A stretch of DNA of 41,458 bases from Oleiagrimonas sp. (GTDB lineage Bacteria; Pseudomonadota; Gammaproteobacteria; Xanthomonadales; Rhodanobacteraceae). The notes beneath the pieces were generated by a model. It was not told the origin of the DNA. It was given only the letters and a program-made list of their open reading frames with translations, and did not search any database. How positions within the stretch are numbered: the stretch's first letter is position 1; every line of letters begins with the position of its first letter. The position numbers and the translations under genes were made by a program. The stretch covers positions 1 to 41,458 of the forward strand of contig NZ_JAQIBU010000046.1 of NCBI RefSeq assembly GCF_027858935.1. Direction: 5' to 3'. Below, in pieces: positions 1-13,691 of this stretch.

Positions 1-1339
1 GCGCGAGCACGGCAGCGTGCTGACGCTGATGTTCAAGCACAGCTTCACCAACGGCATGACATGGAACGTGGACACGCGCGATGTCTGGCACACCGATTCG
101 GCGCGCGGTTACGACGTCATATCGATCAGGCCTGACCTGATGCACGTCGGGCGTCGCGCCCGCGGCCAGATCAACAAGCGCCGTTACGACTATCTGGACA
201 CCAACTTGCAGATGCCGTTCAAGCTGTTCGGTTTTGGCCACAAGATGGTCGTGGGCATGACCGAAGGACGCGTCGACAACACCTTCGATCGCCTGCAGTT
301 TTTCAATGCTCCCGCGACCGGTCCGACCTCGCTGGACATTGCCATCTACAACCCGGTCTACCACCAGGTGCCACCGCTCTGGCAGCTGCCGCTGGCCAAC
401 AGCCCGAAGTCACTGAATGACCGCAACACCCAGATCCACAGTTTCGGCGCCTATTTCGACGACATGATTACCTTCACACAGCAGTGGAAGGCGGCCGTCG
501 GCTTGCGCTACTCGAGGCTGAGCCAGACTTACGACGAGACCTTCCCTGAAGTGCCCGGCCTGACCGCTAACAGCAGCAAGACCAACACCAAGTTCCTGCC
601 GATGGCCGGCCTGGTCTACCAACCGGACCTGCATTGGAGCTATTACCTCAGCTACAGCACCTCGTTTGTCCCGCCACCGCCGCAGGCCATCAACGCGCAA
701 GGCGTGAATGACTTCATCCCGACGTCGGCCAAGCAGTTTGAAATCGGCACCAAGACCAACTGGTTCGACAACCGGCTACGCACGACCTTGGCGTTCTATC
801 AGATCAACGAAAAGGATACGCTGAGCCATTCGCATTGCGCGATCGGCACCTGCTATCAACAGGTCGGCAAGGCTCGATCGAAGGGCGCCGAACTGGAGGT
901 CAACGCACAACCCATGCCGAACTGGCAGATCACCGCCGGCTATTCGTACACGGACGCGCGCATCACCAGTTCGACCAACCCGGCGGAGATCAACACCCGC
1001 CTTCCCGACGTGCCGGTGAACAGCGAGCATCTGTGGTCGCGTTACGATTTCGAATCCAGTGTCCTGCAGGGCGTCGGATTCGGCGTGGGCATCATCCACA
1101 ACGGCCAGCGCGAGGGTGTCACTCCGAAAAAATTCAACGAGGTCATCCTCAAGCTGCCTGCCTATACTCGCGTGGATGCGGCGCTGTACTACGAAAAGGC
1201 GAGCTACAGCCTGACCTTCAAGGTGGAGAACATATTCGACACCACCTACTACCAGAGCGCGGGCTTCAACGGGGACATCAACCTGCTTCCGGGCAACCCC
1301 CGCTTGATCACGCTCTCGGCGCGGTTCTTCTTCGAATGA
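1..1339 (+). CDS. TonB-dependent (siderophore-type) outer-membrane receptor, C-terminal part; N-terminus and plug lie upstream of the window
   Basis: Open frame to the window edge; alternating beta-strand pattern, 'YYLSYSTSFVPPPP', 'QFEIGTKTNWFDNRLRTTLAFYQI', 'AGYSYTDARI', 'NIFDTTYY...', terminal 'LPGNPRLITLSARFFFE' with C-terminal Phe typical of TBDT barrels. Confidence 0.9.
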   Translation, partial: REHGSVLTLMFKHSFTNGMTWNVDTRDVWHTDSARGYDVISIRPDLMHVGRRARGQINKRRYDYLDTNLQMPFKLFGFGHKMVVGMTEGRVDNTFDRLQFFNAPATGPTSLDIAIYNPVYHQVPPLWQLPLANSPKSLNDRNTQIHSFGAYFDDMITFTQQWKAAVGLRYSRLSQTYDETFPEVPGLTANSSKTNTKFLPMAGLVYQPDLHWSYYLSYSTSFVPPPPQAINAQGVNDFIPTSAKQFEIGTKTNWFDNRLRTTLAFYQINEKDTLSHSHCAIGTCYQQVGKARSKGAELEVNAQPMPNWQITAGYSYTDARITSSTNPAEINTRLPDVPVNSEHLWSRYDFESSVLQGVGFGVGIIHNGQREGVTPKKFNEVILKLPAYTRVDAALYYEKASYSLTFKVENIFDTTYYQSAGFNGDINLLPGNPRLITLSARFFFE

Positions 1340-2538
1340 TGACGTACCTCGCATCCAGGCGACCTGCCCGCGCGCGGGCAGGTCGGTCCCTCGCGCTTCT
1401 CGCCGCGCTTTTGGTCTCGGCAGGAGGGTTTATTCCATGGGCCTGGTCGGCTCCGCCGCCCACCGTCCTGTGGCAGTTGCCCGTCGCACACCGTCATCCA
1501 GCGCAAACGCCGGCGCAGAAACTCAGCGGTAAGCAGGAGGGGCGGGACCTGCCCACGCCGGACATCCTGCAACCGACGCTGGATCCGAGGTTGACGGTCT
1601 ACCAGCCCCGCTACAGCGAGGCGCTGTCGGGCACGATCCGCATCGAGTCCTCTGACATCCTGCCCCGGTTGGTGCACTCGTGGATTCGAGCGTTCGCGCG
1701 TTTTTACCCGCACGTGCGGATCCAGTTCGGTCCACCGTACGAAGGTAGCCACGCCGCCCAGGACCTGATCGCGGGGAAGATCACCATCGCCATGGTTTCG
1801 CGCGAGCTCAAGCCCACCGATGTCAGCCAGTTCACCGCGCGCTATGGCTATGCGCCGACCAGCGTCCCGGTTTCGGGTGGCTCCTACCGTCAGTTCGGTT
1901 TTCTCGACGCGGTGACGGTGATCGTGAACCAGGCCAATCCCGTCAAGCAGTTGAGCAAACGCCAGCTTGACGCGATTTTTTCCTCGTCTCACCTGCGCGG
2001 CGATGTTCCGGTACGGCGATGGGGCCAACTCGGCGCCACCGGGGCCTGGAAGGACCGGCCCGTGCATGTCTATGCGATCAAGCCCTGGAATGGTTTCGAG
2101 GAGTTCTTTCGCCAGCGGGTGCTGGACGCCAGGGGCAAGCGTGGCCACTGGCGCCATGATATTCATCTAGCGCCGACGGTATTCCCGATCGCCGGCCAGG
2201 TCGCCGCCGATCCGGACGCCATCGCCTACACTGGGCTGGCTTTCGTCGATGCCCCGGTCAAGGTGATCGCCGTCGGCAACGGCGATACGGCCGTGTCCCC
2301 GACCTACGCTAACGTGGCGTCGGCGCGCTATCCGTTGAGCCGCCTGATCTACGCCAACGTCAACCGCAAGCCGGGCAGGCCGCTGCCGACTGACGTGGCC
2401 GAATTCCTGCGTTTCATCCTCAGCCGCCAGGGCCAGGCCGCGGTGCGCCATGAAGGCATCTTCCTGCCGCTGCGCGCCGGACAGGTGCAGGCAGCGAGAC
2501 AGGTCGAGGGTCCGCCGGACAGGAGTAAGTCCTCATGA
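1336..2538 (+). CDS. PstS-like periplasmic substrate-binding protein (single domain)
   Basis: ATGA overlap with the receptor stop; signal peptide 'LALLAALLVSAGG'; PstS-fold motifs 'GTIRIESSDILPRLVHSWIRAFARFYPHVRIQF', 'VIVNQANPVKQLSKRQLDAIFS', 'RRWGQLGATGAWKDRPVHVY', 'YPLSRLIYANVNRKPG...FLRFILSRQGQAAV'. Confidence 0.8.
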   Translation: MMTYLASRRPARARAGRSLALLAALLVSAGGFIPWAWSAPPPTVLWQLPVAHRHPAQTPAQKLSGKQEGRDLPTPDILQPTLDPRLTVYQPRYSEALSGTIRIESSDILPRLVHSWIRAFARFYPHVRIQFGPPYEGSHAAQDLIAGKITIAMVSRELKPTDVSQFTARYGYAPTSVPVSGGSYRQFGFLDAVTVIVNQANPVKQLSKRQLDAIFSSSHLRGDVPVRRWGQLGATGAWKDRPVHVYAIKPWNGFEEFFRQRVLDARGKRGHWRHDIHLAPTVFPIAGQVAADPDAIAYTGLAFVDAPVKVIAVGNGDTAVSPTYANVASARYPLSRLIYANVNRKPGRPLPTDVAEFLRFILSRQGQAAVRHEGIFLPLRAGQVQAARQVEGPPDRSKSS

Positions 2539-3590
2539 TGCTCGCGAAGCTTGCACCGGGCTGCTGGCGGCGGATGTCGCGCGTGCTCGTGGTCCTCGCC
2601 GGACTCATGCTGGTGGCGCCGGTCATGGCCGACCCGTCGTTCCCATTCCACATGCTGCGCACGCTGACTGTTCCGGGCAACGGTCCCGCGCAGGCGGTGG
2701 CCTTTCTGCCCGGCGGGAACGTCGCATTCGTGGCCGCTGGCCATGAGGTATCGGCGTATGCCTCGGACAATCCAAGCCCTGAGGCATCCCAGGTCGTCGC
2801 GGGTACCGTCACCGGTTTAGCGGTTGCGCCGGGCGGCAGGTTCCTCTACGCCGTGACCCGGGCCCCCGCGAAAGTCCTGGTCATGGACCCGAGCACGCTC
2901 AAAGTCATCCATCGCCGTGCCCTGCATGGTGGTTCGCCCGATGCCGTCTTTGAGGATGCGGCCACGCATGCCCTGTATGTCGTCGACGGCGCCGCGCGCG
3001 AGATCATGCGCATATCGCCGAGCACGCTCGAGATCGAATCCAGGGTCCGTTTGCCGCGCACACTCGGGCAGGTCGTGCCCAACGCGCGCGGGCGCCTGTA
3101 TGCAGTAGCGCCCGGACATGGCGGCGTCTATGCCATCGATGCACGCACCATGCGGCGACTCCCCAGCTACGCCACGCCGCACTGCACGCCCAGCGGCGCG
3201 CTGGCACTGGACACAGTGGGTCGCCGGTTGTTCGTCGGCTGCCGCTCCGGCACGGTGGCGATCCTGGACACCGACATGGGCTTCGTGTTCCGGCGCATCC
3301 AGGCGGGTTCCGCGCCAGGCACGCGCGCGGTGTTCGCCTTCCACCCCGCGTCCGGTTCGGGCTGGAAGGGCGGAATGTTCATGGTCGCGGCACGCCATCT
3401 CCAGGCGGTGAGAATGAACGCATTCGTGCGCTATGCCTACGGCGGGATGATGGCTCTGCCGGGCGTTGCGCGCTCCATCGCACTGTCGCCCGCCGACGGG
3501 CAGATATGGGTCGGCGTCGCCGCATCTGCCGCGCCGGATGCCGGTCCGGCACGCGTAGTGGTGTTTGGCAGCAACGGAGGTCGTCCATGA
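2535..3590 (+). CDS. Exported YncE/beta-propeller-type repeat protein
   Basis: Signal peptide 'VLVVLAGLMLVAPVMA'; repeated blades 'AQAVAFLPGGNVAFVAAGHEVSAY', 'VTGLAVAPGGRFLYAVTRAPAKVLVMDPSTLKVIH', 'GRRLFVGCRSGTVAILDTDMG'; ATGA overlaps on both sides. Confidence 0.75.
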   Translation: MMLAKLAPGCWRRMSRVLVVLAGLMLVAPVMADPSFPFHMLRTLTVPGNGPAQAVAFLPGGNVAFVAAGHEVSAYASDNPSPEASQVVAGTVTGLAVAPGGRFLYAVTRAPAKVLVMDPSTLKVIHRRALHGGSPDAVFEDAATHALYVVDGAAREIMRISPSTLEIESRVRLPRTLGQVVPNARGRLYAVAPGHGGVYAIDARTMRRLPSYATPHCTPSGALALDTVGRRLFVGCRSGTVAILDTDMGFVFRRIQAGSAPGTRAVFAFHPASGSGWKGGMFMVAARHLQAVRMNAFVRYAYGGMMALPGVARSIALSPADGQIWVGVAASAAPDAGPARVVVFGSNGGRP

Positions 3591-5104
3591 AGCGCAGTGG
3601 ATTGTGGGTCCTCATCCTTGGGCTTGCGGGCGTGTGGACTTGCGCCGCCGCGCATGCCCCGGCTCGCATGTTGCCGCGCTCGGCCCTACACGGCATGAAG
3701 GTGACCCTGGTCGAGGGAAGCGCTGCGCGTGAAAAGGGCAGCGACGATGCTCTGGTCGCGCGGCACCTCGAGTCGATGGGATTTCGCGTCAAGCAGGTGC
3801 CGGATACCGCGCCGGTATCCGTGGCGGCGGGCAGCAACCTGGTGGTGATTTCGTCCACCGCGGATGTGTCCGTGCTGGGCGACAAGTACAGCCACCTTGG
3901 GGTCCCCGTGTTCACCTGGAATACCTGGGACTATCCGCACCTGGGACTGACCGGACCGGTCCTGCACAACGACTTCGAGATCATCGATCCGGTGCAGCAT
4001 TATGCGCAGAGTTTCGCCATCCTGTATGCCTATGGCGCCAACCTGACGTCGTCGATCAGCCGGGCGGTAGGACTAAAGCCTCAGCTGTTCGGTACCCTTT
4101 ACCTGGAGCCCGGCAGCGCAGGGTGGGGGCGGCCCGGGCCCGGCGGGACGGTGATCGCCGATTACGACGGCACGCCGCACAAGGCCGCGATCTTTACTTA
4201 TGAACGCGACTCCACCTTGGCCAACGGCAAGCCGGCGCCCGCGCGGCGCGTGGCCTTCTACCTGCGCAGCGACAATTTCCATTTGCTGACCTCGACCTCC
4301 GGTCCGCCCAGCCACGATACGCACATGCGCCAGTGGGCGATCGGGCTGAAGCTATTCGACGCCTCGATTCGCTGGGCAGTTTCGCCACCGGCCCGGCCGA
4401 CGGGCGTGACCCCGGGCTCGATCGAGGCCGCGCTTCGCCGTCAGGCAGCCGCACACAAGACGATCGTGTTCGTCGAGCGCGTACACGGCGGCGAGGGCCG
4501 GCCTTCGGATGAACACATGGTCGCGCACCTGCGCAGCCTTGGCTTCAACGTGCGCGTCACCGACCAGACCGAGCCGCAATCGGTTGCGCATGGCGCCGGA
4601 CTGGTGATGATTTCGTCCACCTGCTCGAAGTACAAACTGGCCAACAAGTACGCCAATATCGACGTGCCGGTGCTCTCGTTGGAGGGCCTGCTTTCCGACG
4701 CGCTGCACTTCAGCGGGCGCAACCGCTACATCGACTACGGTGAACACGGCGAGGAGAAGGAAAGCGACGATCCCCCCGAAAGCTGGCTGAACATTGTCGG
4801 CGCCTGGAGCCCAATGGCCGCCGGCCTGGCAGACGGTCCGGTTCGCTTCACCCGCCATTCGGGCGTGCTGAAATGGGCCACGCCGTTCCCGGATGCGCAG
4901 GTCATCGCGACCATGACCGGCGAGCCCTGGGAGGCGGCGATCTTCGGTTATCCCAAGGGGTCGCTGATGGCCGACGGTTTCATTGCCCCGGCACGACGCG
5001 CGTTGCTGCCCATGGACAATCCAACCTATAACGACCTCACGCCGCAGGGCAAGGCGCTTTTCGATGCAGTGGTGTTATGGACGCTGGGCGGCTCGGCCAG
5101 GTAG
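3587..5104 (+). CDS. Exported protein with two homologous amidotransferase/ThuA-like domains (function unknown)
   Basis: ATGA overlap with previous gene; signal peptide 'SGLWVLILGLAGVWTCAAAHA'; two copies of '(V/I)xxVE....G..SD(D/E)..(V)A.HL.S(M/L)GF.V....T.P.SVA.G..LV(V/M)ISST...'. Confidence 0.6.
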   Translation: MKRSGLWVLILGLAGVWTCAAAHAPARMLPRSALHGMKVTLVEGSAAREKGSDDALVARHLESMGFRVKQVPDTAPVSVAAGSNLVVISSTADVSVLGDKYSHLGVPVFTWNTWDYPHLGLTGPVLHNDFEIIDPVQHYAQSFAILYAYGANLTSSISRAVGLKPQLFGTLYLEPGSAGWGRPGPGGTVIADYDGTPHKAAIFTYERDSTLANGKPAPARRVAFYLRSDNFHLLTSTSGPPSHDTHMRQWAIGLKLFDASIRWAVSPPARPTGVTPGSIEAALRRQAAAHKTIVFVERVHGGEGRPSDEHMVAHLRSLGFNVRVTDQTEPQSVAHGAGLVMISSTCSKYKLANKYANIDVPVLSLEGLLSDALHFSGRNRYIDYGEHGEEKESDDPPESWLNIVGAWSPMAAGLADGPVRFTRHSGVLKWATPFPDAQVIATMTGEPWEAAIFGYPKGSLMADGFIAPARRALLPMDNPTYNDLTPQGKALFDAVVLWTLGGSAR

Positions 5105-5120
5105 CCGGGTCGCTCCTCCC

Positions 5121-7127
5121 GTGAAGCGCGCAGCGTTGAGCCATCGGCTGGCCCTACTTGCCATGTTCGGCTGCGGCCTGGCGACGCCTGTCGCGGCACG
5201 ACCACATCCGTCGGCGTTGCGCTGCATGGGTGCCTCGACCATGCAGCATCTGGTCGCGGCATGGATGCAGGCTGCCCAGGCAGGATGGCCAGCCAACCAC
5301 AGCAAGGTTCTGGGTGGATCGCGCTTTTCCGCCACGGGCGTACAAGCGGCGCTGCGCGGAAAGGTCAATTGCGTGACCTTCGCGCGCGAGCCGTTCCCAG
5401 CCGAGGTGCGCGGATATCAGCATCGCTTCGGCGCCGCACCGATCCTCATCCCGGTGGCTCAGGGCAGCGAAAGGACCCCGCACGGCACGTTCGCCCTGGC
5501 GGTGTTTGTGAACCGGTCCAACCCCCTGCGGCGTCTCACGATGCGGCAGTTGCGCCGGGTACTCGGTGCCGATCCCGTCTCTGGGTCGGCAGTGCGCACC
5601 TGGGGCGAGCTGGGTGGCAGTGGTGCGTGGCGTCAACGTCCTGTGCACGTCTATGGCATGCAGCCGATGCGCGCCACGGGCAACCCGCCGGGAATTGTGA
5701 ATTTCCTGCAGATCAGGGTTTTACGCGGATGGCCTTGGCGCAAGGACCTGCGGGTGCGCACCGATACCCCCCGTGCAAGCGCGCTGACCCGGATCGTACG
5801 CGCGGTGGGGTCTGACCCGGATGGCATCGGCTACAGCGGCATCGGTTATGCCGATCCGAGCGTGGCAAAGCTGGCGATCGCCAAGCACGCGGACGGGCCA
5901 TATTTTCTGCCCGCCCCAGGCAACGTGAAAACCGCGCGTTATCCGCTGGCGCGTCTCATCTACCTCGGTTTCACGCCAGACATCGATGGCCAAGCCAAGC
6001 GAGCCGCCTGTCGCTTGGTGTCGTTGGCCCTGGGTCCCACCGGCCGCAGGCTGGATGCGAGCGATGCCATGCGCTTTCTGCCGCTCACTGCCACCCAGAC
6101 CCGGGTATCCAGGGGGCTGGCGCACCGCACCCTGGGTTGTGCACTGCATGTGCCGCCCGCCGGTCCCGCAGTCCGGCGGCCGCCGGGTACGACGAACTTG
6201 GACGCGTCCACCCTGACGATCATCGGCTACAACGACATGGCCGGCATGGTCCGGCTCTGGAATCGCGCCTTCGCGCGGCATCATGCTGGCGTGCGCTTCA
6301 TCGTCCGGCTGCAAGGCACGCGGACTGCGCCCGGGGCACTGGCCGACGGGACCAGCCAGCTGGCGCCGATGGGCGCGCCGTTCTCCGCGCGCGAGCGGCG
6401 CGCATACCTTGCTCAGCAGCCGTCCGGACCGGTGGGCTTGCGAGTTGCACATGCCAGCAACGACCCGCGTGCGCGATCCTCCCCGATCGCCCTGTACGTG
6501 CATCCCGGCAATCCACTGCGACAGGTGACCCTGGACCAGCTCAGGCGGGTGTTCACCCGCGCCTCGGCGTCGAAAGGCCGCACCTGGTCCATGCTGGGCC
6601 TGGATGGACACTGGGCCACGCGCACGATCGACGTGTGCGGGCTGGCGCCGAACACCGCGCTGGGCCGCTACATGATCCGCCGTCTGCTGCATGGCGGCCG
6701 CTTCGCGCATGGCTACCTGGCGTTTTCCGAATCCGCCGGAGCCGTGCGCCAGGCGGCCACGGATCGCGACGCGCTGTGTTTCGGCGACCTCAACGACACG
6801 CGGACCACGGCAAGACGCCTTGCCATCGTCGCGGGGCCGGGCCGCACGGTCTACACCGGGACCCGCGCGCAGATTCGCTCTGGGGACTATCCGCTGGATC
6901 GCTTCCTGTATCTCTATGTTCGCAATGACGTGGCGGCCAGTCCCCGGGGCGGCCTGGTCTGCGCCTACCTGGATATGGTGCTCTCGGCCCGTGGGCAAGC
7001 GCTGCTGGCGACCGCTCCGCCCGGTTACATCCCCCTGGATCGACGCGAGTTGCGCCATCAGCGCACCCGGCTGCGTGGCCTCGGTTGCACCCGGATTCAC
7101 GGAATGGTGTCCCCAACGGGTCGTTGA
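5121..7127 (+). CDS. Exported protein with two tandem PstS-like substrate-binding domains
   Basis: Likely GTG start at 5121 giving signal peptide 'VKRAALSHRLALLAMFGCGLATPVAA'; PBP motifs occur twice: 'VNRSNPLRRLTMRQLRRVLG...TWGELGGSGAWRQRPVHVYGM' and 'VHPGNPLRQVTLDQLRRVFT...TWSMLGLDGHWATRTIDVCGL'. Confidence 0.75.
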   Translation: MKRAALSHRLALLAMFGCGLATPVAARPHPSALRCMGASTMQHLVAAWMQAAQAGWPANHSKVLGGSRFSATGVQAALRGKVNCVTFAREPFPAEVRGYQHRFGAAPILIPVAQGSERTPHGTFALAVFVNRSNPLRRLTMRQLRRVLGADPVSGSAVRTWGELGGSGAWRQRPVHVYGMQPMRATGNPPGIVNFLQIRVLRGWPWRKDLRVRTDTPRASALTRIVRAVGSDPDGIGYSGIGYADPSVAKLAIAKHADGPYFLPAPGNVKTARYPLARLIYLGFTPDIDGQAKRAACRLVSLALGPTGRRLDASDAMRFLPLTATQTRVSRGLAHRTLGCALHVPPAGPAVRRPPGTTNLDASTLTIIGYNDMAGMVRLWNRAFARHHAGVRFIVRLQGTRTAPGALADGTSQLAPMGAPFSARERRAYLAQQPSGPVGLRVAHASNDPRARSSPIALYVHPGNPLRQVTLDQLRRVFTRASASKGRTWSMLGLDGHWATRTIDVCGLAPNTALGRYMIRRLLHGGRFAHGYLAFSESAGAVRQAATDRDALCFGDLNDTRTTARRLAIVAGPGRTVYTGTRAQIRSGDYPLDRFLYLYVRNDVAASPRGGLVCAYLDMVLSARGQALLATAPPGYIPLDRRELRHQRTRLRGLGCTRIHGMVSPTGR

Positions 7128-7208: not shown

Positions 7209-7589
7209 CTACGGTACCGAGGCAAGTCCAAAGCGTGGTGGTTTAAGTCCGCGATAGCGCTGCGCCAGAGGTGCCAACTGCGGATCCAAGGACGCGAAGG
7301 CATAAAATGCGTCGAGATCCACATCCAGACCCAGAATGTGTCGCAGTACGGTGGTTGCGTAGGCACGTGCGCGGGGTTGTTCACTGGCTGCACCTTGCAG
7401 GCTCACAATCAAGTGGGGTTTGGCGGGACTGCCGCGCTGAGAAACTTCGGCCAGCAACGCCGTCTTGCCCATGGCGAAGCAGCGGCGATAGGTCACGCCG
7501 TCCCAGGTGTCGATCCGATTGCCTGCTTGACGGGGTAGCGCCCAGACAGTCAGATCCAGGCGGAAAGGCGCACGCGTCTCAAGCTTCAT
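7209..7589 (-). pseudogene. Truncated DNA-3-methyladenine glycosylase 2 (AlkA-like), N-terminal domain only
   Basis: 'MKLETRAPFRLDLTVWALPRQAGNRIDTWDGVTYRRCFAMGKTALLAEVSQRG...LAQRYRGLKPPRF' matches the AlkA N-terminal domain, but the frame ends 'GLASVP*' where the HhH catalytic domain should begin. Confidence 0.65.
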
Positions 7590-7944
7590 GTTGATGTCGG
7601 TGCAGGAAGGACCGCAACGCCACGGCGTTGTTGTGTACCTCGTCCCTGGCGGCATACAACAAGGTGATGTGCTGGTGAAGGACGAGTTGCGCGCGCAACT
7701 CGCCGACCGCTTCAGGCGCTGCATCGAGCTCAGCAAAATAGCGTTTTTGAAACGCCTCCCATTGGGCTGGATCGTGATCGAACCAGTGACGCAGGGCATC
7801 GCTCGGCGCCACGTTTTTCAACCACAGATGGACTGCAGCTTCATCTTTGCTCAGACCACGCGGCCACAATCGATCCACCAGGATGCGCATGCCGTCTGCC
7901 TGAGCCGCCTTTGTGTAAATCCGCTTGAGCGTGATGTTGGACAC
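7579..7944 (-). CDS. DUF488 (YeaO-like) family protein
   Basis: 'ITLKRIYTKAAQADGMRILVDRLWPRGLSKDEAAVHLWLKNVAPSDALRHWFDHDPAQWEAFQKRYFAEL...LLYAARDEVHNNAVALRSFL'; GTG start assumed; 11-nt overlap with the AlkA-like gene. Confidence 0.85.
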   Translation of the reverse strand: MSNITLKRIYTKAAQADGMRILVDRLWPRGLSKDEAAVHLWLKNVAPSDALRHWFDHDPAQWEAFQKRYFAELDAAPEAVGELRAQLVLHQHITLLYAARDEVHNNAVALRSFLHRHQHEA

Positions 7945-8150
7945 GACTGCTTTACCCTTCCCGTTGCTCTGACGGGCTGCTGTAAGGTCACGCTTCGCAG
8001 ACTCCGCCTCGGATCCTATGTACCGCATCGGGGGGTCTACCTCGTTCACTCGAGTTTTTCCAGGAAGCCCCACCTGGGGGAAGAAAAATGTCATGAAACA
8101 ACGACGTCACGTGTTTTGATGACGTCCACAAGCGGTTTCGAGCATCAATG

Positions 8151-8546: not shown

Positions 8547-8612
8547 AGCATCTCCCGGTTTGTTCAGGCTCTTTCCGCGCGACAAATGTCGGTGTGCGGG
8601 GCGTCGCATGCC

Positions 8613-8626
8613 TTGATATGAGTCAA
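8613..8626. promoter_or_regulatory. FNR/DNR-type box TTGAT-ATGA-GTCAA upstream of nnrS, with CATAAT -10-like hexamer at 8647-8652
   Basis: Sequence read directly; 9/10 match to the TTGAT-N4-ATCAA consensus; box-to--10 spacing fits a class II (about -41) activator site. Confidence 0.6.
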
Positions 8627-8692
8627 GGATACAAGCCGGTGTACTGCATAATCTGGAGTTCCGTTCATCCGAACCTATTTGGTTCTGCGATC

Positions 8693-9943
8693 ATGCCTGT
8701 CGAACCCACCTCCCATCGGCAACGTCAACGTTGGATCATAACGGTTGCGCCGCACCGGCTGTTTTTCCTGGGGGGTGCGCTGCAGTTGGTCTGTGTGCTC
8801 GTATTCTGGCTGGATGTGTTGATCGGCTGGTATCTGCCTGTATGGGCGCCTCCGTCGCTCACGGTCGCGGCGCCGTTGGCTCACGTGTTCCTGATGTTGT
8901 ACGGGCTATTCACGTTTTTCGTGTTCGGTTTTCTGTTCACGGTGTACCCGCGCTGGCTGCAGACTGCCATCGTGCCGAGATGGCGATACACGACCATAGC
9001 CATCATGCTGAGCAGTGCCATGGCTTGCTTCTACGTTGGTGTGTTCACCTCACGGCTGTTGGCGACCCTTGGTGTGGTGTTGTACGCGCTAGGCTGGGCC
9101 GGCGCCGTGCTGACGTTGCTGCAGGTGTGGCTCAGTTCGAGCAAGACCGACAAGCGGTTCGCGTTGTTCCCATTGACCTTTGTCATGTTCGGTCTGGTGG
9201 GTAACTGCGTCTATGCGGGCTGGTTGATCAGACCCGCGTCGACCCTGTTTGACCTCACCCTTGCAGTCGGACTGTGGCTGTATCTGGTGCCGCTGATTGT
9301 CGCGGTAAGTCATCGCATGATTCCATTTTTCAGCAGTTCTGTATTGAAGCCATACACCATCGTCAAACCGAGCTGGACGGTTCCCGCGATGCTGGTTTGT
9401 GTGCTTCTGCACGGGGCACTGGATGTGACCGGAAATGCACAATGGACCGTACTCGCAGATTCTCCGCTGGCCGGAATGGCCATATGGCACAGCTGGCGCT
9501 GGGGCCTGATGCGCAGCTTGCGGATCCCATTGCTGGGAATGCTTCACGTAAGTTTCTTCTGGCTGGGAATTTCCATGCTGCTGTATGCAGCGCAGAGCCT
9601 GCTCCGGCTGTCTGGAGCAGGCTTCGACCTTGGGCTGGCTCCGCTGCACGCCCTGGGTATCGGGTTTATTTCCGGCATGGTGATCGCGATGGCGTCGCGG
9701 GTAAGCCTTGGGCACTCCGGGCGTGCCCTGGTGGCTGATCGCGTGACGCTGTGGGCCTTTGCCATCCTGCAATTCGTTGCGGTTCTTCGGATATTGGCCG
9801 AAGTGCCGCCATTTGTGCACCATCGGGCGAGCATGTGGCTGATCTTGACGGCAGGCGCGGTGTGGCTGATCGCACTGGTGCCGTGGAGCATGCGGTTTGC
9901 TGGCGTCTATTTCGCGCCACGCGTGGATGGTGTCCCGGGCTGA
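8693..9943 (+). CDS. nnrS: NnrS family haem/copper-type membrane protein (NO metabolism)
   Basis: Polytopic protein: 'APHRLFFLGGALQLVCVLVFWLDVL', 'HVFLMLYGLFTFFVFGFLFTVYPRWL', 'VSHRMIPFFSSSVL', 'HALGIGFISGMVIAMASRVSLGHSGRAL'. Confidence 0.85.
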   Translation: MPVEPTSHRQRQRWIITVAPHRLFFLGGALQLVCVLVFWLDVLIGWYLPVWAPPSLTVAAPLAHVFLMLYGLFTFFVFGFLFTVYPRWLQTAIVPRWRYTTIAIMLSSAMACFYVGVFTSRLLATLGVVLYALGWAGAVLTLLQVWLSSSKTDKRFALFPLTFVMFGLVGNCVYAGWLIRPASTLFDLTLAVGLWLYLVPLIVAVSHRMIPFFSSSVLKPYTIVKPSWTVPAMLVCVLLHGALDVTGNAQWTVLADSPLAGMAIWHSWRWGLMRSLRIPLLGMLHVSFFWLGISMLLYAAQSLLRLSGAGFDLGLAPLHALGIGFISGMVIAMASRVSLGHSGRALVADRVTLWAFAILQFVAVLRILAEVPPFVHHRASMWLILTAGAVWLIALVPWSMRFAGVYFAPRVDGVPG

Positions 9944-9953
9944 ACAAAAATTC

Positions 9954-10628
9954 TCAAGTCAGCTGCTGCTGCAGCTTTGCGCTGTCCAGCACATGGATGA
10001 CGTCGCCACGCACGCGTATGAGGCCGCTGTTTTCCAGCTCTCGGAACAGTCGTGACAATGTTTCCGGCTGCATGGCCAGTTGCGAGGCGATCACCGCTTT
10101 CCGCGCCGGCAACTTGATGACGTGTACGTTGGCACCGGGCGTGATCTGGTGCAGAAGATAATGCACGAGGCGATAACGGGTGTTCTGGATGGTCAGCGAC
10201 TCAATCTCGTCCAGATGGCGCTGGGTCCGCAGCACCATCTGCTGAAACAGCTTGCGGCAGGTGACGAACGATGTTTTCAGAATATCGAGATAAACCCTGC
10301 GATCCACACCCAAGATCGTACTTTCGACTACCGCCTCGGCGTTGACCGGGTAACGCGGTGGCTCCATGAACAGGATGCCCTCGGCAAAGCTTTGCTTCGG
10401 CATCACCAGCCCCATCACTTTCTGGTGTCCGTCACGGGACAGTCGATACAGTTTGATCTGGCCGCTCTCGAGCCACCAGAACTGATCCGCGCGATCCCCC
10501 TGCATGAAGAACGCTTCACCGGCAGCCAGCTTGCGTGTACGGCTGTGTTCTAGCAGCCGTCGACGTTGCTCGTCATCCAGCCCGTCAAACAGGTAATGGC
10601 CTTGCAGGTCGTGAGGACTTGTGTTCAT
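9954..10628 (-). CDS. Crp/Fnr-family regulator, DNR-like (no FeS cysteine cluster)
   Basis: cNMP fold 'GEAFFMQGDRADQFWWLESGQIKLYRLSRDGHQKVMGL' plus HTH 'VIASQLAMQPETLSRLFRELENSGLIRVRG'; only one Cys; adjacent to nnrS and norZ. Confidence 0.85.
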   Translation of the reverse strand: MNTSPHDLQGHYLFDGLDDEQRRRLLEHSRTRKLAAGEAFFMQGDRADQFWWLESGQIKLYRLSRDGHQKVMGLVMPKQSFAEGILFMEPPRYPVNAEAVVESTILGVDRRVYLDILKTSFVTCRKLFQQMVLRTQRHLDEIESLTIQNTRYRLVHYLLHQITPGANVHVIKLPARKAVIASQLAMQPETLSRLFRELENSGLIRVRGDVIHVLDSAKLQQQLT

Positions 10629-10705
10629 TGATACATCCGCAATCGTACGGTCGTGAAGCGGCTGTCTGTCTAGTTCGCAAGTTGGAAGAACTGGTTTTTT
10701 CTTCA

Positions 10706-10737
10706 TTGCGGCATGCTCCAGCAGACGCATGCCGCAA
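10706..10737. repeat. Perfect 11-bp inverted repeat TTGCGGCATGC-N10-GCATGCCGCAA in the leader/promoter of the DNR-like gene
   Basis: Read directly from the sequence. Confidence 0.85.
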
Positions 10738-11280
10738 ATACGCAAGGCGCCATGTCGCCGTTTCGGACCACGGTTGAGCAACAACTTAGCACGCCAACTG
10801 CTACGCACCGATTTACCGTCCAAAGTCTCCGCGCTGCTTGTACTTGCATCCATAAAAACCGAAAGCTACAGCTACGGTTGCGGTGTATTGATGTGTGTCC
10901 AGGGCCCGTGTCTCATGCGTAATCAGCAAGCAAACCAGCGATGAAAAATCGTTTCGCCGTGCCCCAAGTCCATTTCGAGGTCATCAGTTGGCAAGGGCGC
11001 CGCATTGTCTGTTGCCATGCGATGGACTGGATGCCGATATTCGCGCATGAAAATCACGATCCTCGCGTCCGCAGTGGCACACATCGGCCACATGGTCAGC
11101 GCGAGCTGTAAATTTCCGCCCGAGGTTTCAGCGGGGTCGCCGTCCAGGAGACCTCTCGATTTGCGATGAAAGACGAGCAACACCACCGCCTTGCAGACCC
11201 ACATGGTCCGATGGGAAATGCGTATGCGTGAAGGCGTGCAATACCCTGCGACAACTTGTCAATGCCTGTTTCAACTATCC

Positions 11281-11294
11281 CTGATCCAGATCAG
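11281..11294. promoter_or_regulatory. FNR/DNR-type dyad CTGAT-CCAG-ATCAG upstream of norZ, with TAGGAT -10-like hexamer at 11316-11321
   Basis: Perfect dyad; 8/10 match to TTGAT-N4-ATCAA; about 40.5 bp from the predicted start site. Confidence 0.6.
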
Positions 11295-11354
11295 CCGGAT
11301 TGCGCGGGTAGCACCTAGGATTTGCCGAGTTCCACTTTGGCAAACAGGAATGTC

Positions 11355-13691
11355 ATGAGCCCAACTATCCTCACCTCAGGCCGTGCCGGCCCCCAGGATC
11401 GCATCAGCAAAGTTCTGATCTGGATTTTGCTGTTCGTCGTCGTAGCTTGCTGGCTCGGCATGGCAGCAGCCACCCGCAGCACGTACCAGCAGGCTGCTCC
11501 GCTACCTCAACAGATGGTCACCAACAGTGGCACCTCAGTGATGAGCTATGCCGATATTGTGGCTGGCAAGTCGGGCTTCCAGAAAGCAGATCTGATGGAC
11601 TATGGAAGTCTTTACGGCATGGGATCCGCCTTTGGCGAGGACTACACAGCCGAGTACCTCGTGCAGCTGGCCAAGGAAGTCCGAAACAACCTGGCGCTTG
11701 CACGATACGGCAAGTCTTTCGATGCACTTAATGCTGATCAGCAGCCAAGTGTCACGAACGGTATGCGCGATGAGCTGCATGGTATCGACCTGAGCAAGGC
11801 GCAGGTGGTACTGCCCGACGCAGTGGCCAAGGCCATCGAATCGCTGCGCCCGCGCATAGCAACTTCGCTGCTCACCAATGACTTCAGCAAAGGCTATACG
11901 GGTGCGCGTGCACTGGACCCGACCAGCGCCGGTCAAACGGCAAACTTCCTGCTCTATTCGTCGTTGACAACGGTGGCGCGTCGTCCCGGAAAGGACTACT
12001 CGTGGACCAGCAATTGGCCGTCCGAACCGCTTGTCGGAAATGCCCCCACCAAGGCAACTTTCGTATGGACATGGGCTTCGTTCACCATGGTGTTTTTTGC
12101 CATCGGCGCGGTGCTGGTAATTTTCAGACTGTGGATCGAGCCGAAGGCGGACAACGAAACCTTCGAGCCAGTGCTGAACAAGTTCATGACGCCTACACCC
12201 AGCCAGAAGGCGCTATGGAAATACTTCCTGGTGGTCGCTGGTGTGCTGCTGGTGCAAATTCTTGCCGGCTCGATCATGGCGCACTACTACACTGATCGGG
12301 TCAGCTTTTACGGCATCGATGTGGGCAAGTGGCTACCGTTCGCGTTCCTGCGCAGTGTGCATTTGCAGGCACCGATCGTATGGATTGGCGTGAGTTGGAT
12401 CGGTGCGGGCCTGTTCCTGGCGCCGATGATCGGTAAACGCGAGCCCAGCGGGCAGAAGCTGCTGGTCAACCTGATCTTCTGGGTTCTGGTGACAATCGTG
12501 GCCGGTGCGCTGATCGGCGATTACTTGGGCATCATGGGACTGGTCCACACAAACTGGTTCTGGTTTGGCAACCAGGGACTTTCGTACCTGGAGCTGGGGC
12601 GCTTCTGGCAGATCCTGTTCTTTGTGGGTCTGGCCGTGTGGTGCCTGGTGCTGCTGCGTGCGTTCCTGCCTACCCTCAAGACGCTGTTCAGGCAGAACGG
12701 CGGCTCGCTTTACGGGTTGTTCCGGATTGAGCACCTGTTGTGGATAAGCACGTTGACGGTCGCCTTGTTCTACGTGTTCGGCATGATCCCGCTGACCTCG
12801 CCCAACCCTTCGTTTTCTATCACCGACTTCTGGCGTTGGTGGGTGGTACACCTGTGGGTAGAGCTGGCGTTCGAGCTGTTCACCGCGGCTGTTACCGGCT
12901 ACTTCCTGATGGCGCTTGGACTGGTGTCGCGGCAGATGGTCGAGCGTGCGGTACTGTTTGAATGGGTGCTGATTTTCATCGGCGGCGTGCTCGGCACAGG
13001 TCATCACCTGTATTGGGCCGGCGAGCCAGGGCTGTGGGTCGGCGTGGGCAGCATGTTCTCCTTCGTCGAGGTGCTGCCGCTGGTGCTACTGGTGCTCGAA
13101 GCGATCGACCAGCATCGTCATATCCGGCAGAAAAGGGACTTCCCGTACAAGCTCGCCTATCTGTACATCCTCGGTGCGGCGTTCTGGAACTTTGTCGGTG
13201 CCGGCGTGTTTGGCGGCGGCACGCTGAATGCACCGCTGGTCAATTATTACGAGCACGGTACCTTCCTTACCCTCAACCATGCGCACACTTCGATGTTTGG
13301 TGCCTTCGGTCTGCTGGCCATCGGTTTGCTCTACATGGTTTTACGCTATCTCAACGGCGATCGTCCGTGGAATGATCGAGCGGGTGTTTGGGCGTTTTGG
13401 CTGTACAACAGCGGTGTGGTGATGTGGATCGTGCTGAACTTCTATCCGATCGGCTGGCCTCAGCTCGAGGCGGTCTACACGCATGGCTACGCCTACGCGC
13501 GCAGCATGCAGTTCTACAACACCACCACGTTCTGGCAATGGATGCGCATGCCCGGCGATATCGTGTTCGCAGCAGGTGCCTTGTTGATGACCTGGGATTT
13601 CATCGTCAAATTGATTGCCCAACGTAAGTCGCCTGCGGTTGGAGTAACTGCGCTCGACGGAACTCCGACCCAAGCCGGTTCGAGTTCATGA
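11355..13691 (+). CDS. norZ: Quinol-dependent nitric oxide reductase (qNor, NorZ/NorB-type)
   Basis: 'WVVHLWVELAFELFTAAVTGYFLMALGLVSRQM', 'GGVLGTGHHLYWAGEP', 'SFVEVLPLVLLVLEA', 'AFWNFVGAGVFGG', 'NHAHTSMFGAFGLLAIGLLYMVLRYL'; N-terminal periplasmic extension typical of qNor. Confidence 0.93.
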   Translation: MSPTILTSGRAGPQDRISKVLIWILLFVVVACWLGMAAATRSTYQQAAPLPQQMVTNSGTSVMSYADIVAGKSGFQKADLMDYGSLYGMGSAFGEDYTAEYLVQLAKEVRNNLALARYGKSFDALNADQQPSVTNGMRDELHGIDLSKAQVVLPDAVAKAIESLRPRIATSLLTNDFSKGYTGARALDPTSAGQTANFLLYSSLTTVARRPGKDYSWTSNWPSEPLVGNAPTKATFVWTWASFTMVFFAIGAVLVIFRLWIEPKADNETFEPVLNKFMTPTPSQKALWKYFLVVAGVLLVQILAGSIMAHYYTDRVSFYGIDVGKWLPFAFLRSVHLQAPIVWIGVSWIGAGLFLAPMIGKREPSGQKLLVNLIFWVLVTIVAGALIGDYLGIMGLVHTNWFWFGNQGLSYLELGRFWQILFFVGLAVWCLVLLRAFLPTLKTLFRQNGGSLYGLFRIEHLLWISTLTVALFYVFGMIPLTSPNPSFSITDFWRWWVVHLWVELAFELFTAAVTGYFLMALGLVSRQMVERAVLFEWVLIFIGGVLGTGHHLYWAGEPGLWVGVGSMFSFVEVLPLVLLVLEAIDQHRHIRQKRDFPYKLAYLYILGAAFWNFVGAGVFGGGTLNAPLVNYYEHGTFLTLNHAHTSMFGAFGLLAIGLLYMVLRYLNGDRPWNDRAGVWAFWLYNSGVVMWIVLNFYPIGWPQLEAVYTHGYAYARSMQFYNTTTFWQWMRMPGDIVFAAGALLMTWDFIVKLIAQRKSPAVGVTALDGTPTQAGSSS

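Follow-up and report, generated by a model that had tools for sequence, protein, structure and literature searches.

A conserved TonB receptor-linked envelope cassette in Oleiagrimonas sp. and its relatives, a candidate for the uptake of chelated tricarboxylates

Organization of the cassette

The first 7 kb of a 41,458-nucleotide stretch of Oleiagrimonas sp. DNA (hereafter the window; NCBI RefSeq assembly GCF_027858935.1, contig NZ_JAQIBU010000046.1) carry a gene cassette in which a TonB-dependent receptor (TBDR1) is followed by genes for two exported PstS-fold proteins of the periplasmic binding protein (PBP) type, i.e., PBP1 and the fusion PBP2-PBP3, a beta-propeller (PROP) and an amidotransferase-fold protein (GAT). 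The window corresponds to contig C201 of a draft genome of 3.0 Mb in 375 contigs and starts with the first base of that contig. Because it begins at the contig edge, TBDR1 is present only as a C-terminal fragment, and the upstream side was invisible to an earlier note based on the sequence of the window. The five genes at 2-7127 all lie on the plus strand (Table 1). The first four are joined by three ATGA stop/start overlaps, and the GTG start of PBP2-PBP3 at 5121 is 16 nt beyond the GAT stop; the overlaps and this spacing are as the note had described them. Its assignment of signal peptides to the four products downstream of the receptor agrees with their N-termini, each of which runs from charged residues through a hydrophobic core to an AxA-like site and is signal-peptide-like as judged by hydropathy, not by SignalP.

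Table 1. Features of the cassette in the window, and members of an exported family found near the cassette in related loci (L numbers denote loci)
Feature	Position	Strand	Basis or remark
TBDR1, TonB-dependent receptor, C-terminal 445 aa of ~770	2..1339	+	PF00593 1.6e-51; open at window start
PBP1, exported PstS-fold binding protein, changed ligand pocket, 400 aa	1336..2538	+	PF12849 2.2e-18
PROP, exported 7-bladed YncE-like beta-propeller, 351 aa	2535..3590	+	AlphaFold model, PDB matches
GAT, exported, two class I amidotransferase-like domains, 505 aa	3587..5104	+	structure model
PBP2-PBP3, exported fusion of two PstS-fold domains, 668 aa, GTG start	5121..7127	+	PF12849 2.6e-11, two stretches
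PstS-fold domains within PBP2-PBP3	about 5211-6155 and 6186-7055	+	
ATGA stop/start overlap TBDR1/PBP1	1336..1339	+	sequence
ATGA stop/start overlap PBP1/PROP	2535..2538	+	sequence
ATGA stop/start overlap PROP/GAT	3587..3590	+	sequence
Exported family members	L082 14581-15708, L065 1862-2896, L073 4448-5443, L085 2-1033		
Exported family members, further	L105 295-1686, L106 8985-9824, L056 9901-10686		

Conservation and co-inheritance

The core TBDR1-PBP1-PROP-GAT recurs, with its gene order kept and all four genes on one strand, in about 20 loci not counting the window, and further contigs end inside it. The core-bearing loci belong mostly to Xanthomonadales or to unclassified proteobacterial assemblies, the named members being Rhodanobacter sp. 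B05 and assemblies of Rhodanobacter, Rhodanobacteraceae, Lysobacteraceae and Steroidobacteraceae. With the window counted, the ATGA overlap is kept between TBDR1 and PBP1 in 24 of 28 loci, between PBP1 and PROP in 15 of the 23 with data, and between PROP and GAT in all 24 with data. Since the core recurs so often and its overlaps are kept, the cassette is not a product of chance. Moreover, the distance matrices of the four core proteins from 21 loci correlate with Mantel r of 0.82-0.91 (0/2000 permutations as high), and the four genes share one history. The neighbourhood maps thus bear out the conserved, receptor-linked envelope cassette proposed in the earlier note.

The stoichiometry listed in the note is not fixed. 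PBP2-PBP3 is an optional add-on, absent in about half of the relatives, and a variant in one genus (f1-g9) has TBDR1 with four PBP domains and neither PROP nor GAT inside the operon. Two genomes of another family (f2) encode GAT 38-40% identical and PBP1 about 50% identical, and the plasmid-borne relatives are only distant (GAT 29-35%, PBP1 up to 52%). The distribution is sporadic, with a PBP1 orthologue in 7/399 genomes of the order.

Loss of the phosphate motif in the PstS-fold proteins

PBP1 matches ptsS_2 with 125 bits, under the cut-off of 206.6, and the solved structures nearest to it are 4omb and 4pqj, which we take to be P. aeruginosa PstS. The ligand loop of P. aeruginosa PstS reads FGRNSVSGTYGYF, and that of PBP1 in 25 orthologues is Y(A/G)IKPWNGFEEFV or a near variant, i.e., IKPWNGFEEF stands where PstS has RNSVSGTYGY and the Arg, Ser and Thr are gone. 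The same three residues of the PstS motif GRNSVSGT are lost in the orthologues of PBP2 and PBP3, which carry signatures conserved among themselves (YGMTP..A.GNPPGIVNFL and CGLA..TALG, respectively), and the replacement motifs are conserved across genera. In E. coli PstS, the residues lost here contact phosphate. Three pockets, each conserved in a different way, suggest three specialised jobs and not decay.

A ligand such as phosphate or another small oxyanion would be the first guess from the PstS fold, from the PF12849 and ptsS_2 matches, and from the SR pair of the phosphate site, which lies elsewhere in PBP1 and is retained. We nevertheless rate this reading as highly improbable, given the loss of the loop residues in all three domains. 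A permease was not seen beside the cassette, and the window genome has a separate PstS on contig C69 and Pst-like ABC (ATP-binding cassette) genes, namely a pstB-like ATPase and two permease-domain matches, on contig C155. Phosphate uptake by the cassette was rejected on the pocket residues and the separate PstS. The cassette thus has the PBP fold in common with PstSCAB and differs from it in lacking the phosphate motif and in that PstCAB was not seen adjoining.

Propeller and amidotransferase-fold proteins

The AlphaFold model of PROP (predicted local distance difference test, pLDDT, 89) has E. coli YncE as its top PDB matches (7seu/3vgz). By sequence, the profile search gave only weak matches below cut-off, among them NCBIfam YncE (NF052280) with 2e-7 and 30 bits against a cut-off of 400. 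C217 and C236 are invariant.

GAT was placed by the fold search only, as sequence searches of Pfam, NCBIfam and PDB returned zero matches. Its model (pLDDT 85) matches GMP synthetase (Foldseek 2.7e-7), CTP synthetase (4.3e-5) and other GATase-fold domains. Together with the PF12849 and YncE matches, this supports the PstS-like domains, the propeller and the duplicated amidotransferase-like protein that the note had recognised. The class I amidotransferases use a Cys-His-Glu triad, and because no Cys or His occurs in the columns conserved at the 90% level in the alignment of 33 relatives, GAT is treated here as a putatively non-catalytic use of that fold. Single-domain relatives of GAT stand directly after TonB receptors in alpha-, beta- and gammaproteobacteria, and specifically 3' of siderophore-type receptors in Cupriavidus, Caballeronia, Acinetobacter, Novosphingobium and several Rhodanobacteraceae. 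That GAT acts with the receptor is hinted at most strongly by this position directly behind siderophore-type receptors.

Two such pairs of a siderophore-type receptor and a single-domain GAT, on the megaplasmid of Cupriavidus metallidurans CH34 (L120, 859-5624) and in Caballeronia (L127, 3695-8639), have upstream of them a FecR-like gene and a small gene whose size fits that of an extracytoplasmic function (ECF) sigma factor gene; the species are well studied or can be cultured. A viral origin of GAT was also considered and rejected, as a viral contig encoding it was not found.

The receptor and its regulation

The TBDR1 fragment of the window scores 177 bits on TIGR01783, the family of TonB-dependent siderophore receptors, and is 69% identical to residues 337-779 of the receptor in L077. 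A full-length orthologue on a Rhodanobacter sp. B05 contig (L054) carries both the plug (PF07715) and the barrel (PF00593) and scores 266.5 against the cut-off of 223.5. The nearest solved relatives are the enantio-pyochelin receptor (FetA), CntO, FoxA and FhuA. In eight loci (L067, L070, L071, L072, L075, L083, L087 and L088), genes for an ECF sigma factor and FecR lie upstream of a receptor with an STN domain. L084 has STN and FecR at the contig edge and ends before the sigma gene, and in L066 the ECF and FecR genes are more distant. The remaining loci tested have none of the three; the window receptor lacks the N-terminus, where an STN domain would lie. As sigma factor, FecR and STN domain come and go together, part of the cassette lineage appears to use surface signalling of the FecIRA type.

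These receptors also provide evidence for the main rival explanation, in which the cassette would be a system for a (xeno)siderophore or metallophore that gives up its iron in the periplasm. In such a system the PBPs would hold siderophore and metal, a PepSY or cytochrome b561 protein would reduce the iron, which would then take a separate ferrous route, and any organic-acid carriers nearby would be incidental or would only recycle the ligand. In addition to the siderophore-receptor score and the loci with ECF sigma, FecR and STN, it draws on PepSY-Fer2 and cytochrome b561 genes, which adjoin relatives of PBP1 in L056, L082, L123 and L124, and on the precedent of the FpvJ/FpvC/FpvF complex (PMC6954188). 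This explanation leaves unaccounted for the presence of two non-homologous citrate-family carriers in the same neighbourhood in both alpha- and gammaproteobacteria, and the reductases occur in only a few loci. We consider it rather unlikely, and it overlaps with a citrate reading if the ligand is ferric citrate.

Inner-membrane carriers beside the cassette

Neither PstCAB nor another ABC permease was seen beside the cassette in any relative mapped, and the mapped loci likewise revealed no FecB or FecCDE transporter there. The view of the earlier note that no permease or ATPase adjoins the binding proteins is supported for ABC permeases and incomplete for secondary carriers, as CitMHS, 2HCT or major facilitator superfamily (MFS) proteins adjoin the cassette in many relatives. 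In both f2 genomes, the gene immediately upstream of TBDR1, in the same orientation, encodes CitMHS (citrate:H+), with TIGR00784 scores of 614 and 618 bits against a cut-off of 259.7. In one of them (L105), the genes adjoining CitMHS and the cassette encode a porin and a 2CSK_N sensor kinase with its response regulator, and relatives free of the cassette also keep the sensor, regulator, Porin_O_P porin and CitMHS together. We take this arrangement to correspond to that of Xanthomonas CitH, a reported citrate transporter under TctDE control (PMC3321045).

In the cassette-free CitMHS loci L112 (12276-13358) and L111 (3084-4136), a solute-binding protein gene adjoins the 2CSK_N sensor. An ABC permease was not seen near it in either locus, and the protein may feed the sensor. 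The porin beside CitMHS in L111 (6448-7659), from an f2 genome that is probably Xanthomonas, belongs to the phosphate-selective Porin_O_P family, though the locus appears to serve citrate.

A 2HCT (citrate:cation) carrier is close to the cassette in L061, L062, L064, L066 and L085. These proteins score 377-446 on TIGR00783, for which the cut-off is 549, and 411-488 on PF03390, for which it is 26. 2HCT exceeds the cut-off in only 4/399 genomes of the order, two of which are cassette genomes, both of one genus. Most Rhodanobacteraceae have an MFS carrier instead (L055, L056, L073, L076, L077, L078, L079, L080, L082 and L133). MFS takes the same kind of place as 2HCT, next to a second propeller (PROP0) and a second receptor of about 1000 aa (TBDR2): PROP0 or TBDR2 adjoins 2HCT in L061, L064 and L066 and MFS in L055, L077 and L133. 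All 7/399 genomes of the order with a PBP1 orthologue have CitMHS, 2HCT or MFS, and in six of the seven the carrier is within about 10 kb, that of the window genome being at a contig end. Because a module of histidine kinase, response regulator, PROP0 propellers and MFS also exists without the cassette (L129, L131 and L132, two of which have TBDR2), the MFS module seems to have gained the cassette as an addition.

In the window genome, the 9522-bp contig C99 (L100, 582-9522) carries TBDR2, a histidine kinase, a response regulator, two propellers and the first 152 residues of an MFS protein whose gene runs off the contig end. The note had seen no inner-membrane partner, and this fragment speaks against that for the genome as a whole. 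The rest of the MFS gene and the N-terminal part of TBDR1 are not on any other contig of this genome. Since MFS precedes TBDR1 in L055, L077 and L082, C99 is probably the immediate upstream neighbour of the window, with about 2 kb between the two missing from the assembly.

Plasmids give independent support, with two alphaproteobacterial cases of the association with carriers. A Polymorphobacter plasmid combines a histidine kinase/response regulator pair, PROP0, 2HCT, a single-domain GAT and cytochrome b561, and Novosphingobium pSA1 has PstS-fold proteins in one locus with CitMHS and a 2CSK_N/TctD-type pair, and a TBDR-GAT pair elsewhere on the plasmid. On Azoarcus and Paraburkholderia plasmids, a PBP1 about 50% identical stands beside a PepSY-Fer2 reductase, NMT1-type binding proteins and a large TonB-dependent receptor.

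The regulatory genes in these neighbourhoods raise the further possibility of a sensing module, in which the receptor and PBPs would report the ligand to FecR and the ECF sigma factor or to the neighbouring two-component pair, off the main uptake route. Besides the ECF-FecR-STN loci, it is consistent with the same kinase/regulator pair standing beside PROP0/TBDR2/MFS in Rhodanobacteraceae and, in Polymorphobacter and Azoarcus, next to 2HCT or PBP1, and with the solute-binding protein gene next to the 2CSK_N sensor in the cassette-free citrate loci. On the other hand, the core is kept where ECF and FecR were not seen, and known surface signalling requires less than a propeller, a double GAT and several PBP domains. 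Uptake and sensing are compatible with each other, and we regard sensing as the principal role as improbable.

Proposed function

We propose, with moderate confidence, that the cassette captures citrate or a similar hydroxy-tricarboxylate, probably in metal-bound form, in a TonB-driven manner and hands it to a secondary carrier. The citrate ligand is suggested by the gene-neighbourhood association in several lineages and with two carrier families. TBDR1 would carry the chelate across the outer membrane, and the PstS-fold proteins, re-specialised from phosphate, would bind the chelate in the periplasm, either whole or as its separate components. GAT, presumably inactive, and PROP could be docking or unloading partners beside the receptor. 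The freed acid would cross the inner membrane by CitMHS, 2HCT or MFS, depending on the lineage, and not by an ABC pump, while the metal would take a path of its own, a PepSY or cytochrome b561 protein probably reducing it first in some relatives. The idea of the earlier note that the binding proteins capture or chaperone the ligand of the receptor in the periplasm remains the best one, and its alternative of sensing fared less well.

Several observations weigh against a citrate ligand. TBDR1 resembles the enantio-pyochelin, CntO, FoxA and FhuA receptors and not FecA. The MFS carrier falls into a general organic-acid/sugar group, has no citrate-specific match and is present in cassette-free loci as well; the 2HCT and CitMHS families move malate or other acids too. 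CitMHS and 2HCT are both absent from the window genome, about ten relatives, for the most part those with ECF sigma and FecR, showed no carrier within the approximately 10 kb viewed, and four species of the same genus are without the cassette.

More tentatively, the cassette could represent a distinct class of proteobacterial envelope uptake system, in which a TonB receptor coupled to a catalytically dead amidotransferase-fold protein, a propeller and a relay of PstS-fold domains, each with its own specialisation, would work without an ABC transporter and deliver a chelated tricarboxylate to a secondary carrier that can be exchanged. We see this as a possibility only, and a less probable one than the citrate-type uptake itself.

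Relation to known systems

Literature searches restricted to open-licence papers found no description of the cassette, in line with the view of the note that it was undescribed. The parts are known, as is the general logic leading from a TonB receptor through periplasmic binding proteins to an inner-membrane carrier. The combination appears to be new, as do the relay of non-phosphate PstS-fold proteins, the receptor-linked and apparently inactive amidotransferase fold, and the absence of an ABC pump.

E. coli Fec is the ferric-citrate system, consisting of FecABCDE with FecIR, and E. coli also has the TonB receptor YncD (PqqU), which imports pyrroloquinoline quinone (PQQ), and the propeller YncE as genomic neighbours. 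This pairing of a TonB receptor with a YncE-type propeller recurs in the cassette, which adds PstS-fold and amidotransferase-fold partners that the YncD-YncE pair lacks. With Fec and with fciTABC of Stenotrophomonas, the cassette shares a TonB receptor for a citrate chelate, on the reading proposed here, and part of its relatives share the FecI/FecR/STN signalling. It differs from Fec in lacking FecBCDE, and TBDR1 is far below the FecA cut-off. The Stenotrophomonas fciTABC/feoABI system also works without FecBCDE (PMC9047314). It was rejected as the identity of the cassette, as FciT, FciB and FciC have no counterpart and the products differ (PMC9047314).

The pyoverdine system FpvGHJK-CDEF of Pseudomonas likewise uses several periplasmic proteins, two of them binding proteins, to unload the ligand behind a TonB siderophore receptor (PMC6954188). 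The cassette lacks an ABC transporter such as FpvDE, its binding-protein families differ, and a PepSY reductase was seen in only three relatives; the abstract on the pyoverdine system names neither a propeller nor an amidotransferase-fold protein (PMC6954188). The TctDE-CitH set of Xanthomonas shares CitMHS and a two-component system with the L105 locus, where the cassette adjoins such a set (PMC3321045). The cassette-free loci of this type have a Porin_O_P porin and a solute-binding protein and lack TBDR1, PBP1, PROP and GAT, and the window genome has the MFS fragment and no CitMHS.

The Lut cluster resembles the cassette in combining a TonB receptor with several unknown periplasmic proteins, and an acquisition cluster of the Lut type, for lanthanides or another metal, would fit this likeness (PMC7391723). 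Relatives of PROP0 score on a PQQ-associated propeller family, and some hosts come from metal-rich or mine-type samples, to judge from the isolate names. However, Lut uses the ABC transporter LutAEF (PMC7391723), and beside the cassette an ABC transporter was not seen and citrate-type carriers stand in its place, so we give this alternative very little credence.

Neighbouring genes

An exported family without a Pfam match in the members scanned lies near the cassette in seven loci (Table 1), and by eye its members appear to consist of two dimeric alpha/beta-barrel-like halves. Downstream of the cassette in the window, an open reading frame (ORF) on the minus strand (7209-7799) resembles by eye the N-terminal part of an AlkA-type glycosylase, seemingly cut short, and adjoins a DUF488-like ORF (7579-8094). 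The genes at 8594-13691, by eye for an NnrS-like protein, a Crp/Fnr-type regulator and a quinol-type nitric oxide reductase, suggest nitric oxide handling next to the cassette, and a link between the two was not seen.

Significance

If the proposed function is true, several periplasmic binding proteins would link TonB-driven import to a secondary carrier, and the usual ABC pump would be dispensed with. The unnamed GAT family behind TonB receptors, including that of Cupriavidus metallidurans CH34, would gain a function, and caution would be needed before such PstS-like proteins are labelled as phosphate transporters. Rhodanobacter sp. B05 is a culturable relative that bears the cassette. For bacteria of soil or acid water, the cassette would suggest an uptake route for metal-bound citrate.

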